Positions 53,444-56,904 of a stretch of DNA of 61,427 nucleotides are shown here, in pieces. Origin of the DNA: Acidobacteriota bacterium (GTDB taxonomy: Bacteria; Actinomycetota; Acidimicrobiia; Acidimicrobiales; Microtrichaceae); assembly GCA_003577145.1 (NCBI GenBank), contig QEUP01000023.1, positions 1-61,427 of the forward strand, in the 5' to 3' direction. The notes beneath the pieces were generated by a model. That model had not been told where the DNA came from and ran no database searches. It worked only from the letters and a program-made list of their open reading frames with translations. Position 1 is the first letter of the stretch; the number at the start of each line of letters is the position of its first letter. A program made the translations under genes and the position numbers.

Positions 53444-54637
53444 ATGCCAGGCGCAGATCCGGCCGCGTTGAAAGAGCGCGTGGTGAAAGCAGTCGACGAG
53501 CTGGCTGACCGGCTCATAGAGGTTTCCCACGAGATCCACTCACACCCCGAGCTCTGCTATGAGGAGCGCTTCGCTCACGACCTGCTCACCGATCTCCTGT
53601 GTCAGGCGGGTCTGGAGACCGAGCGTCACGCATACGACCTCGAAACAGCGTTCGTAGCCAGGGTGGGCGACACCGGCCCGGTGGTCGCCGTCATCTGTGA
53701 GTACGACGCCCTACCCGGGATAGGGCATGGCTGTGGCCACAACATCATCGCCGGCAGCGGCGTCGGAGCGGGGCTGGCCGCGGCATCGATCGCCGCAGAG
53801 GCCGGCGGGTCCGTCATCGTCATCGGCACACCGGCGGAGGAAGGCGGCGGGGGAAAGGCCAAGCTCATAGACCGAGGAGCATTTGCGGGCGTGGACGCCG
53901 CGATGATGGTTCATCCCGCCGGTGCCGACATGGTGTCGATGAACGGCATCGCCATCCAGCAGCTCGAAGTCGAGTACTTCGGTGAGGCAGCACATGCTGC
54001 GGCGTTTCCCCAGCATGGCAGGAACGCGCTCGACGCCGCGGTGCTCGGGTACATGAATGTTGCTGCCCTACGCCAGCACATCAGGCACGATGAGCGTGTA
54101 CACGGCATCTTCACGCGTGCGGGTGACAAACCCAACGTTGTACCGAGCCACACGTCCGCGCTCTGGTACGTCCGTGCGAGACGACTGAGCACGCTCGAAC
54201 CATTGAAGGATCGTGTCATCGCCTGCCTCGAAGCCGGTGCATCGGCGGCGGGCTGTGAGATGTCTCACAACTGGGCCGAGCCCGCCTATGCCGATCTGGT
54301 CAGCAATGAGACCATCGTTGCCAGGTATGCGGCCAACGCCGCGACTCTCGGTCGCCAGCTCGGCCGTCCCGATGCTGCCGCGGCGGTTGTCGGTAGCACG
54401 GACATGGGCAACCTGAGCTACGTGGTCCCTTCCATCCACCCGATGATCCAGGTCGCACCCCCGGAGGTAGTCATCCACACCCCGGCGTTCGCCCAGTATG
54501 CGGTATCGGCCTCGGGTGACCAGGCAGTGCTGGATGGCGCAAAGGCTCTGGCCATGACCGTCGTGGACCTCTGGACCGACAGAACCCTCCTGGACCGTGC
54601 ACGCAGCGAGTGGGCGGAGCGAGTGGGCGATGAGTGA
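53444..54637 (+). CDS. M20-family metallopeptidase/amidohydrolase (AbgB/AmhX-like)
   Basis: 397 residues. Metal-binding and catalytic features of the M20D amidohydrolases are present: HEIHSHPELCYEE near residue 29, CGHNIIAGSGVGAG near residue 102 and PAEEGGGGKAKLIDRGAF near residue 129. A dimerisation domain follows in the middle (VEYFGEAAHAAAFPQHGRNALDA). Family members cleave N-acyl or p-aminobenzoyl amino acids and dipeptides. The substrate is unknown. It overlaps the possible early start of the next gene. Confidence 0.88.
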   Translation: MPGADPAALKERVVKAVDELADRLIEVSHEIHSHPELCYEERFAHDLLTDLLCQAGLETERHAYDLETAFVARVGDTGPVVAVICEYDALPGIGHGCGHNIIAGSGVGAGLAAASIAAEAGGSVIVIGTPAEEGGGGKAKLIDRGAFAGVDAAMMVHPAGADMVSMNGIAIQQLEVEYFGEAAHAAAFPQHGRNALDAAVLGYMNVAALRQHIRHDERVHGIFTRAGDKPNVVPSHTSALWYVRARRLSTLEPLKDRVIACLEAGASAAGCEMSHNWAEPAYADLVSNETIVARYAANAATLGRQLGRPDAAAAVVGSTDMGNLSYVVPSIHPMIQVAPPEVVIHTPAFAQYAVSASGDQAVLDGAKALAMTVVDLWTDRTLLDRARSEWAERVGDE

Positions 54638-54659: not shown

Positions 54660-56273
54660 GTGAGCACTTACGTCGGGGAGGACTTCAGTACCGAAGAGGC
54701 AGACGTCCTCAGGCGGTACTTCACCAATCTCGACGGACCGGTGTTCGCCCTGGTGAACCTTCCGGAGGTGGTCAAGGGGGCCCTCTTCGCCCGCTACTCC
54801 CGGTCGGCCAAATCCTTGCGGAGGCTGTTCCTCGACGAGTTCGTCGGAGATCTCGACATCACCGGGGACTCGACCATCGACGCGACGATAGGTCTGCGAA
54901 GGGCCGAGGAGCTCTACGATCGGGTCTTCTTCGCCTACGGTGACGACTCGGTGGCCCAACTGGGTGGGGTTCACCTCGCTTGTGAGCAGGCCTCGAACGT
55001 GTTGACCAAGGTCCTCGAGTGGGGTCGACTGATGTCGTATCTCGAGCAGTCGACCAGGTACATCGCGTACGACGCTCGAATCGGAGGGCGTTACCGCTTC
55101 TACCGGGATGCGGAGATCCTCGCCTCAGCTCTGGGCGCGCGCTATGTCGGTGACATCGACAGGCTGTTCGATACCTACGCGGATCTCTTGCCGACAATGC
55201 AGGACTTCTTCCGGGTACGTCATCCCAAGGCACCCGACGACTCGGATTTCGTGTATCGCCAGGCGATCAGGGCCAAGGCGTTTGATTCGTTGCGCGGCAT
55301 CCTGCCCGCGGCGTCGCTCTCCAACGTCGGTATCTTCGGAACAGGACAGGGCTATGAGCATCTCCTGTTGCGCATGCGATCCCACCCGCTGCCAGAGGTG
55401 AGGCAGTACGCCGACCTCATGCTCACCGAGCTCCGCAAGGTCATGCCCTCGTTCCTCAAGCGGGTCGACCTGGCGGATCGTGGGGTCGTCTGGAGCGAGT
55501 ACCTCGGGTGTAACCGGGCAGCCATGGAGGACACCGCGGCAGCTCTGGTGGGGGAGGACAACGAGAGCTCATCGAGCCCGGCGGTCGAGTTGGTCGATTT
55601 CGACCCTGACGGTGAGCTCAAGATGGTCACTGCAATGCTCTATCCCTTCACCGACCAACCCGAGCATCGGTTGGAGGAGCGAGTCCGCGCCATGACGGTT
55701 GAGGAAAGGCTGCGGGTCGTGCGTGCGTACGTAGGTGAGCGCACCAATCGTCGCCACAAACCGGGACGGGCTCTCGAACGAACCTCCTACCGGTTCGATG
55801 TGCTGGCGGACTACGGAGCGTTTCGTGACCTGCAACGCCACAGGATGCTCACCATCGAATGGCAACCGCTGACGCCGCGGCACGGGTACACCCAACCCGC
55901 GGCGATAGCGAGCGCCGGCTGCGCGGGTGCTTTCGACGCGGCGATGGAGAGAAGTGCGACGTTGTTCGAGGTGCTTTCCGAGAGCTTCCCCGCCCAAGCC
56001 TCCTACGCTGTGTGTCTCGCCTACCGGATTCGTTTCGTGATGCAGATGAACGCCCGTGAGGCGATGCACCTCATCGAGCTGCGGACCTCGACCCAGGGAC
56101 ACCCTGCCTACCGACATGTGGGCCAAGAGATGCATCGGCTCATCGCGGAGAAGGCGGGACACAAGGCCATAGCCGAGATGATGAGCTTCGTCGACTACTC
56201 CTCGGAGCCCGAGCTGGAGCGGCTCCAGGCCGAGCGCCAGGCCGAGGTCCGGCGTCAAAGCCGAGCCCGTTGA
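54660..56273 (+). CDS. Tandem ThyX-like (flavin-dependent thymidylate synthase) protein
   Basis: A 537-residue protein with two ThyX-like halves, about twice the usual 220-260. Canonical ThyX has RHRxxSxNExSxRY. In the first half residues 121-134 read WGRLMSYLEQSTRY: the Ser, Glu, Ser, Arg and Tyr remain but the RH pair is lost. In the second half residues 393-395 are RHR, but the following MLTIEWQPLTP lacks the Ser/Arg part. The later MNAREAMHLIELR matches the ThyX substrate helix. Together one composite site could form. It may make dTMP or have another flavin chemistry. GTG 54660 chosen; ATG 54630 adds ten residues. Confidence 0.82.
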   Translation: MSTYVGEDFSTEEADVLRRYFTNLDGPVFALVNLPEVVKGALFARYSRSAKSLRRLFLDEFVGDLDITGDSTIDATIGLRRAEELYDRVFFAYGDDSVAQLGGVHLACEQASNVLTKVLEWGRLMSYLEQSTRYIAYDARIGGRYRFYRDAEILASALGARYVGDIDRLFDTYADLLPTMQDFFRVRHPKAPDDSDFVYRQAIRAKAFDSLRGILPAASLSNVGIFGTGQGYEHLLLRMRSHPLPEVRQYADLMLTELRKVMPSFLKRVDLADRGVVWSEYLGCNRAAMEDTAAALVGEDNESSSSPAVELVDFDPDGELKMVTAMLYPFTDQPEHRLEERVRAMTVEERLRVVRAYVGERTNRRHKPGRALERTSYRFDVLADYGAFRDLQRHRMLTIEWQPLTPRHGYTQPAAIASAGCAGAFDAAMERSATLFEVLSESFPAQASYAVCLAYRIRFVMQMNAREAMHLIELRTSTQGHPAYRHVGQEMHRLIAEKAGHKAIAEMMSFVDYSSEPELERLQAERQAEVRRQSRAR

Positions 56274-56364
56274 GCCGCTGCCTCCGGTCGCGCTCGCTGT
56301 GACCCGCGTTCGGCCCGAGAGTAGCTATGCTCCCCGCAGATACAACGCCAGGCACGAGGGACAG

Positions 56365-56904
56365 ATGGTTGACGACACCCCTGACGGGAAAGAGCCGGAG
56401 GAGGAGGACTTCGACGAGGACGCACTCGACGAGGACTTCGACGAGGACGCACTCGACGAGGACTTCGACGAGGACGCACTCGACGAGAAGGAGCTCGAGG
56501 AAGAGGACTTCGACGAGGACGTCCCCGATGATGACGAGACCGAGGGGGACGAAGCTGAGGAGGTCGCCGCTGCCCGGAAGAAGAAGCGAGTCAAGGGCAG
56601 CGAGGAAGAGGACGAGGAAGAGGAGGTCGATCCCGACGACGTCGAGGCCGACCTCGACACGATCCTGAAGGACCGGATCTCCGCGTCCGAGGACGAGGAC
56701 GAGGAAGAGGACGAGGAGCCCGAGGAGAGGGGCAGCGAAGCGGGTGGCTCGGTGGCCGCGAAGCGTGAGGGCGAGTTCACCTGTCCGCAGTGCTTCATGA
56801 TCGTCCACCCGCGTCAGTTCGGCCGTCGTGACAAGCCGATCTGCCCCCAGGGTGAAGAGGACTGCCCGGCAATCAGGATGGTCTTCGAGTCAGTGCGCAA
56901 GTAG
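56365..56904 (+). CDS. Acidic protein with C-terminal zinc ribbon (DUF4193-like)
   Basis: 179 residues. About 110 N-terminal residues are Asp/Glu-rich, including three exact copies of EDFDEDALD, broken by one basic patch (ARKKKRVKG). The C-terminal part EFTCPQCFMIVHPRQF...PICPQGEEDCP contains two Cys pairs and resembles the C-terminal ribbon of DUF4193, an acidic actinobacterial protein of unknown function. ATG with GAGG upstream. It could act as a nucleic-acid mimic or a polymerase-associated factor; that is speculation. Confidence 0.72.
   Translation: MVDDTPDGKEPEEEDFDEDALDEDFDEDALDEDFDEDALDEKELEEEDFDEDVPDDDETEGDEAEEVAAARKKKRVKGSEEEDEEEEVDPDDVEADLDTILKDRISASEDEDEEEDEEPEERGSEAGGSVAAKREGEFTCPQCFMIVHPRQFGRRDKPICPQGEEDCPAIRMVFESVRK
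56404..56484 (+). repeat. Three exact 27-bp coding repeats
   Basis: Three identical 27-base units at 56404-56430, 56431-56457 and 56458-56484, each encoding EDFDEDALD. Perfect identity including third positions indicates recent expansion. Confidence 0.95.

Follow-up and report, generated by a model that had tools for sequence, protein, structure and literature searches.

The window (the whole 61,427-nucleotide stretch of DNA analysed) encodes a putative thymidylate synthase in which two ThyX domains are joined on one chain and the ThyX signature motif is divided between them. The gene for this double ThyX is located at 54660..56273 on the forward strand, as are the domains and residues described below, and specifies 537 amino acids plus a stop codon; it was assigned from PF02511 matches and from homologues. 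Judged from sequence, the protein is probably a flavin-dependent thymidylate synthase of the host cell, in a fused and asymmetric form whose active sites are composites of the two halves.

The open reading frame starts with a GTG codon at 54660. Another in-frame GTG is found upstream at 54597; yet many homologues match from residue 1. The coordinates, strand and residue numbers of the motif parts (121-134 and 393-395) given in the first-pass annotation are exact on re-reading of the frame. Pfam Thy1 (PF02511) matches the whole protein in two stretches with 117.5 bits, and each half also exceeds the cut-off of 24.8 bits by itself (56.9 bits for the first half, 58.5 bits for the second). The score against the NCBIfam thyX equivalog TIGR02170 is 47.9 bits, below the cut-off of 87.9. 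Profile-profile comparison with hhalign used an alignment of 24 canonical ThyX rows, made up of two PDB fragments and 22 loci of more than 200 residues from the 23 of 30 that contain the motif. The first half matches this alignment with a probability of 98.4 (E 6.8e-14) and the second half with a probability of 97.3 (E 5.7e-11). The first Thy1/ThyX domain, with the motif's dUMP-side part, spans 54897..55451; the second, with the FAD-side part, spans 55590..56153. Two Thy1 domains on one chain, each matched by PF02511 and hhalign, bear out the duplication and fusion that the first-pass annotation had proposed.

Divergence from characterised ThyX proteins is considerable. No direct alignment of the first half with the second was obtained; a phmmer search of solved structures with the double ThyX alone gave no ThyX match, and a profile of the double ThyX family reaches solved ThyX only at E 0.023. 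The protein has no match to ThyA (PF00303), and a Pfam scan to E 1 gives Thy1 only. A second half unrelated to ThyX is ruled out by the PF02511, hhalign and structure matches. Likewise, two separate reading frames or a sequencing artefact are ruled out, as the joined frame is present in 104 relatives.

The structure of the full-length protein was modelled from an alignment of 55 of the 75 cleanly reading relatives (pLDDT 86.4, pTM 0.86). Foldseek listed 50 PDB matches for this model, all of them ThyX chains (probability 1.00, best E 8e-6); identity in the structural matches to ThyX chains is 15-22%. VIA-align superposes residues 305-515 on Thermotoga maritima ThyX (5iot_D) with Z 16.6 and rmsd 2.4 over 192 aligned residues, and also matches them to Mycobacterium tuberculosis (Mtb) ThyX and PolB; the second half is predicted to have the ThyX fold. 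The first half was poorly predicted when folded alone in one run (pLDDT 76.8, pTM 0.62): it lacks three strands that the full-length model has (104-112, 126-129 and 219-227), and the best match, to Mtb ThyX, is partial (Z 8.2, rmsd 1.9, only 75 residues aligned). Residue 131 of this lone model falls on Mtb residue 105, which is the expected register. These predictions may hint that the two halves fold together. Among viral models, an LMM01 thymidylate synthase (528 columns, rmsd 15.2) and a 461-residue protein (538 columns, rmsd 13.1) were also matched; at rmsd 13-15, these matches give little information on the placement of the halves.

The uninterrupted motif RHRxxSxNExSxRY is absent from both halves as a single-domain feature. 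The first half reads WGRLMSYLEQSTRY at residues 121-134 (55020..55061); it keeps E129, S131, R133 and Y134, and has W121 and G122 at the first two RHR positions. The second half reads RHRMLTIEWQPL and contains an intact RHR at residues 393-395 (55836..55844), after which the dUMP part of the motif is missing. W401 and Q402 (55860..55865) occupy the places of canonical Q/E103 and 104 in the motif.

Conservation of the divided motif was examined in 105 doubles mapped on Mtb ThyX numbering. Among 112 matched loci, 109 cover at least 481 residues; removal of three copies of the window sequence and two duplicates leaves 104 full-length or near-full-length relatives (54 to 77% identical), to which the window protein was added. 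S131, R133 and Y134 (Mtb S105, R107 and Y108) are each kept in the first half of all 105 doubles, while the second half has no residue aligned at these positions (an ungapped reading gives P403, T405 and P406). R393 and H394 (Mtb R95 and H96) are kept in the second half of all 105 doubles; the equivalent first-half positions are W in 92 and R in 13 doubles (residue 121) and G in 104 and S in one (residue 122). W401 and Q402 are likewise found in 105/105. The third RHR residue (Mtb R97) is kept by both halves, as R123 and R395, in 105/105 doubles each.

The same division is observed in more distant doubles. Eighteen of these were compared: eight annotated coding sequences, taken unfiltered from 17 plasmid and phage records, and ten IMG/VR loci chosen by an open reading frame filter that requires both half-motifs, which 10/10 passed (over the matched part, L185 and L154 are one and the same protein). 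In all 18, the first half holds the single ExSxRY, and the second half has RHR or RHNR. A 40% identical double from genome G080, outside the 105-row set, has the same split; the Miltoncostaea double carries a further RHR at residue 359. Invariance of the split residues in the 105 doubles and recurrence in 18/18 distant ones argue that the split is more than chance. The complementary half-motifs described in the first-pass annotation are therefore supported in both sets, with one amendment: the first half does lack the R and H of RHR, but the last R is still there.

Published subunit roles fit the place where the motif is divided. In one active site of Mtb ThyX, according to an excerpt of PMC6514825, subunit A supplies RHR 95-97 and R199, and subunit B supplies S71 and R190; subunit C adds R87, S105, R107 and Y108, the lid residue. 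In PBCV-1 ThyX with an inhibitor, Ser88 and Gln89 are contributed by one monomer and Gln75 and Arg182 by the other (PMC3498832, excerpt). The sharing of ThyX sites between subunits, already assumed in the first reading of this sequence, agrees with both accounts; the motif of one chain thus contributes its two ends to two different sites. Since RHR and R199 are supplied by a different subunit from S105, R107 and Y108, the division seen in the doubles follows the natural seam of the enzyme. Following fusion into an A-like and a C-like half, one mirror pair of sites can stay whole while the other loses residues. For the motif, the sequence has exactly this pattern.

In the proposed arrangement, one chain would be a pseudo-dimer, and two fused chains would pair to form a ThyX-like pseudo-tetramer; the earlier term 'pseudo-homodimer' needs this rewording. 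A complete site would consist of RHR and R475 of a second half opposite ExSxRY of a first half. FAD would be placed on RHR and dUMP stacked on the flavin beneath Y134; the methylene of CH2-H4folate would then be handed over flavin N5 to dUMP. In the opposite two sites, WGR would face the replaced stretch, and these sites would be dead or have another purpose. There would thus be two working sites per two fused chains, compared with four per four chains in canonical ThyX.

If this is true, the double ThyX amounts to a natural experiment on a homo-oligomeric enzyme with active sites shared between subunits: selection after fusion would have kept one full motif set and released its mirror image. 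Changes on the FAD side or the dUMP side could be made in one live site with the mirror intact, which is impossible in a homotetramer; the contribution of each subunit, and the need for four sites, could then be tested directly. The family is also an annotation trap. Database records say 'FAD-dependent thymidylate synthase', and in a search for the uninterrupted motif the protein would look broken.

The remaining active-site residues are partitioned less cleanly. R212 (55293..55295), equivalent to Mtb R172 and T. maritima R147, is R in 105/105 doubles and is found in the first half only; the second half has S (31), Q (26), A (24) and others at this position. T. maritima R147 is a dUMP-phosphate ligand. 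R475 (56082..56084), equivalent to Mtb R199 and T. maritima R174, which contacts and activates dUMP, is invariant in 105/105. A second R199 equivalent is present in the first half as R238 (R in 103 doubles, K in two) and adjoins a three-residue alignment gap. R466 (56055..56057), equivalent to the FAD phosphate-binding Mtb R190, is kept in the second half of 105/105; the first half has Y (85), F (19) or N (1). The Mtb S71 equivalents are S97 in the first half and R370 in the second, so that the counterparts of S71 and R190, which both belong to subunit B in Mtb, fall in different halves (S97 and R466).

Several canonical residues are lost from both halves or kept in only some of the doubles. 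At the position of Mtb R87 (subunit C), the first half has N113 or Q (N in 95, Q in 10) and the second half Y or F; T. maritima ThyX is also without R87. T. maritima Q75, which Mtb ThyX does not have, is replaced in the window protein by V118 and D390. Over the 105 doubles, this position is V, I or A in the first half, with Q in 2/105, and D in the second half of all 105. At the position of T. maritima S83, the first half has A (56), S (47) or G (2) and the second half T. Equivalents of T. maritima R78, H79, R80, E86, S88, R90, Y91, R147, R165 and R174 are all present in the double chain.

T. maritima H53 corresponds to D95 and N85 to L128 in 105/105 doubles; the second-half N85 position is E400. 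In T. maritima ThyX, Y91 and N85 hold H53, which forms stacking contacts with flavin or folate (PMC11940539, excerpt). Because both residues are replaced throughout the set, folate handling may differ, and details of folate binding in the cellular clade may not be those of canonical ThyX. The five most distant doubles (Paenibacillus, Bacillus, Tunturi_5, LMM01 and Vibrio) retain the H53 histidine in the first half. In the Bacillus and Paenibacillus doubles, as read by eye from an alignment, the R190-like NGR is in the first half and absent from the second, and an R199-like arginine is found only in the second half.

The gene appears to fill the thymidylate synthase slot of its host. A profile search of the host assembly, which is 96.6% complete, gave no match to ThyA, to any other Thy1/ThyX, to thymidine kinase or to DHFR_1. 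The first-pass annotation had asked whether ThyA or a normal ThyX is also encoded; neither was found in this assembly, which rules out a decayed paralogue next to a normal enzyme. DCD family matches and thymidylate kinase are present; these are the enzymes on either side of the dUMP to dTMP step.

Similar patterns are seen across 149 genomes of the phylum. The window protein is matched in 52 of them, 47 with doubles and five with single-domain ThyX. ThyA is matched in 40/149 genomes, weakly in 26 of these. Among the 47 genomes with a double, ThyA is matched in G129 only, compared with 39 of the 102 others (Fisher p 6e-7, a value that ignores shared descent). Thy1 is found in 114/149 genomes, in its single form in 67 (seven of which also match ThyA); 32 genomes match ThyA only and three match neither. 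By match counts, double-bearing genomes have two Thy1 matches per double and none beyond. DHFR_1 is found in 1/47 double-bearing genomes and 14/102 others (p 0.04), a rarity that is expected of a synthase producing no dihydrofolate. Thymidine kinase is matched in 15/47 double-bearing genomes (one below the cut-off), which do not include the host; thymidine salvage is conceivable in these 15. In phage Tunturi_5, the double ThyX gene directly follows a dCMP deaminase gene, with a dUTPase gene nearby.

In G129, a ThyA fragment (profile positions 1-74) shares a contig with DHFR, and a second contig carries a thymidine kinase fragment (contigs C181 and C211); perhaps these represent contamination, foreign DNA or recent transfer. 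The 26 genomes with weak ThyA matches (33-48 bits, profile positions 81-235) belong to families f11, f22, f24, f28 and others. Their matches lie in open frames of about 220-330 residues, with one of 571 and some that read through stops. Since 22 of the 26 have no Thy1 match, a divergent, short ThyA-like protein may be the thymidylate synthase of those 22 genomes.

The first-pass annotation left the function as either a thymidylate synthase or a flavoenzyme with a new substrate. The latter would be a descendant of ThyX that acts on, for example, UMP or a modified pyrimidine, with dTMP made otherwise. Strong divergence (no solved ThyX by phmmer and a score under the NCBIfam thyX cut-off), the altered H53 and N85 positions and the presence of PolB among the structural matches are all compatible with it. 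PolB is a UMP/dUMP methylase that acts on UMP in polyoxin antibiotic biosynthesis (PMC5003785, excerpt). It shares the ThyX fold with the second half of the double (4p5a and 4p5b, Z 12.3-13.3); unlike the two-domain double, it is a single-domain protein with chains of 226-235 residues. However, the host has DCD and thymidylate kinase and gave no match to ThyA, canonical ThyX or thymidine kinase. Moreover, 46/47 double-bearing genomes are without a ThyA match, Thy1 matches never exceed two per double, and S131, R133, R212 and R475 are invariant. A new substrate therefore seems improbable; thymidylate synthase is favoured by the sole synthase slot found in the genome and by the fit of the phylum sample.

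It is quite unlikely that all four pseudo-sites work, with W121/G122/R123, R361-R370, W401 and Q402 as substitutes for the lost residues. R123 is kept in the first half of 105/105 doubles, R238 could replace R199 there, and R370 lies at the S71 position of the second half; all of these would suit four working sites. In contrast, the second half is without equivalents of S88, R90 and Y91 across the 105 doubles, the first half is without those of R78 and H79 (H in 0/105, R at residue 121 in 13/105), and distant doubles show the same losses. A scaffold or regulatory role for one half, with whole sites in the other, is very unlikely: pseudo-enzyme halves are common in fused pairs, but neither half has the full motif and both partial sets are completely conserved.

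The double ThyX differs from canonical ThyX (T. maritima TM0449 and Mtb ThyX) in its two domains per chain, divided motif and altered H53 and N85 positions. The second-half fold, Thy1 matches, key FAD and dUMP residues and genomic slot are common to both. Duplication of ThyX is itself already known. Valas and Bourne (2009) noted a ThyX with 'domain duplication' in the Chloroflexi then sequenced, Dehalococcoides excepted, and in 'a few other species', and added that it 'has not been characterized' (PMC3224940, excerpt). The Chloroflexi protein probably belongs to the same family as the window double; a contig titled Dehalococcoidia (L101) carries a double that is 58% identical to the window's. 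The excerpt of PMC3224940 on Chloroflexi ThyX does not mention a divided motif or a composite site. The open-licence literature searched contains no account of a ThyX motif split in this way, of its agreement with the boundary between subunits, of one common origin of the doubles, or of their occurrence on plasmids and in phages.

Doubles are found in plasmid, phage and chromosomal sequences. Ten plasmid records were matched by tblastn, and all ten proteins are labelled 'FAD-dependent thymidylate synthase'. Euzebya pacifica (49% identical), Parabacteroides distasonis (46%) and Miltoncostaea oceani (46%) account for three, and the other seven, from Bacillus or Paenibacillus, are 23-27% identical. 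Seven phage records were matched as well: the proteins of Tunturiibacter phage Tunturi_5 and Microcystis phage LMM01 (two records) are labelled thymidylate synthase, and those of four Vibrio phages hypothetical protein. The doubles of LMM01, Vibrio phage Yong MS32, Tunturi_5, Bacillus and Paenibacillus share the half order and divided motif of the window protein. Phage and Bacillus/Paenibacillus doubles are 22-27% identical and keep the first-half GHxS histidine, which is D95 in the window protein; the Bacillus and Paenibacillus doubles have RHNR in place of RHR. Viral sequences were also scanned: the family profile found one locus (L160), the LMM01 protein 24 loci at 92-97% identity, the Bacillus protein nine, and the Tunturi_5 protein none.

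Genome contigs were searched with the window protein only, and labels of metagenome-assembled genomes were taken as given. Among the best 80 of 92 relatives, titles are mostly Acidimicrobiia or Actinomycetota; others are Acidobacteria (three), Bifidobacterium breve (four), and Dehalococcoidia, Myxococcota, Nitriliruptoraceae and Thermoanaerobacterales (one each). One genome, G040, has two double ThyX genes (contigs C71 and C5), 62% and 59% identical to the window's.

A tree of 58 rows (24 first halves, 24 second halves and ten canonical ThyX) separates the first halves from all other rows by one branch (support 100/99) and the second halves by another (support 97/88). This fits one origin of the doubles by a single fusion, in a tree that is unrooted, has several very long branches and brings long branches together. 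The first half of the 46% identical double from the record named Parabacteroides distasonis plasmid (L159, NZ_OY725790.1) groups with the IMG/VR contig L160.

A broader scenario is possible but doubtful. A single ancient fusion would have given an obligate composite ThyX with two live and two converted sites, which reached phages and Bacillota plasmids as well as Actinomycetota, Chloroflexota and at least one record from Bacteroidota. Its converted pockets (WGR of a first half facing the invariant W401/Q402 and the basic stretch R361-R370 of a second half) would be conserved for binding a regulator or a second substrate.

A different rearrangement is suggested by four Thy1 relatives (L146, L147, L148 and L149, from G051, G039, G009 and G075), which are seemingly circularly permuted. 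They have THRxFSRNSxSSRA on the N-terminal side and a GHxSxxEH-like stretch (HWSPxEH) at the C-terminus. In family f16, genus g21 (G009, G051 and G075) has this Thy1 form, and other genera (G024, G063, G097 and G108) have double ThyX.

The neighbourhood of the double ThyX gene looks like an ordinary, partly conserved chromosomal region. Its neighbours are tatC and genes for a DSHCT/Mtr4-like helicase, a YegS_C protein and an M20 peptidase, together with GNAT, NUDIX, enoyl-CoA hydratase and HAD genes and a gene for a DUF4193-like acidic protein (below cut-off). In a tblastn comparison over 80 related loci, the helicase was found in 56/80 and a relative of the GNAT protein in 46/80. The downstream open reading frame at 56299-56904 contains three tandem copies of the acidic nonamer DFDEDALDE, followed by a DUF4193-like tail that scores below the Pfam cut-off.
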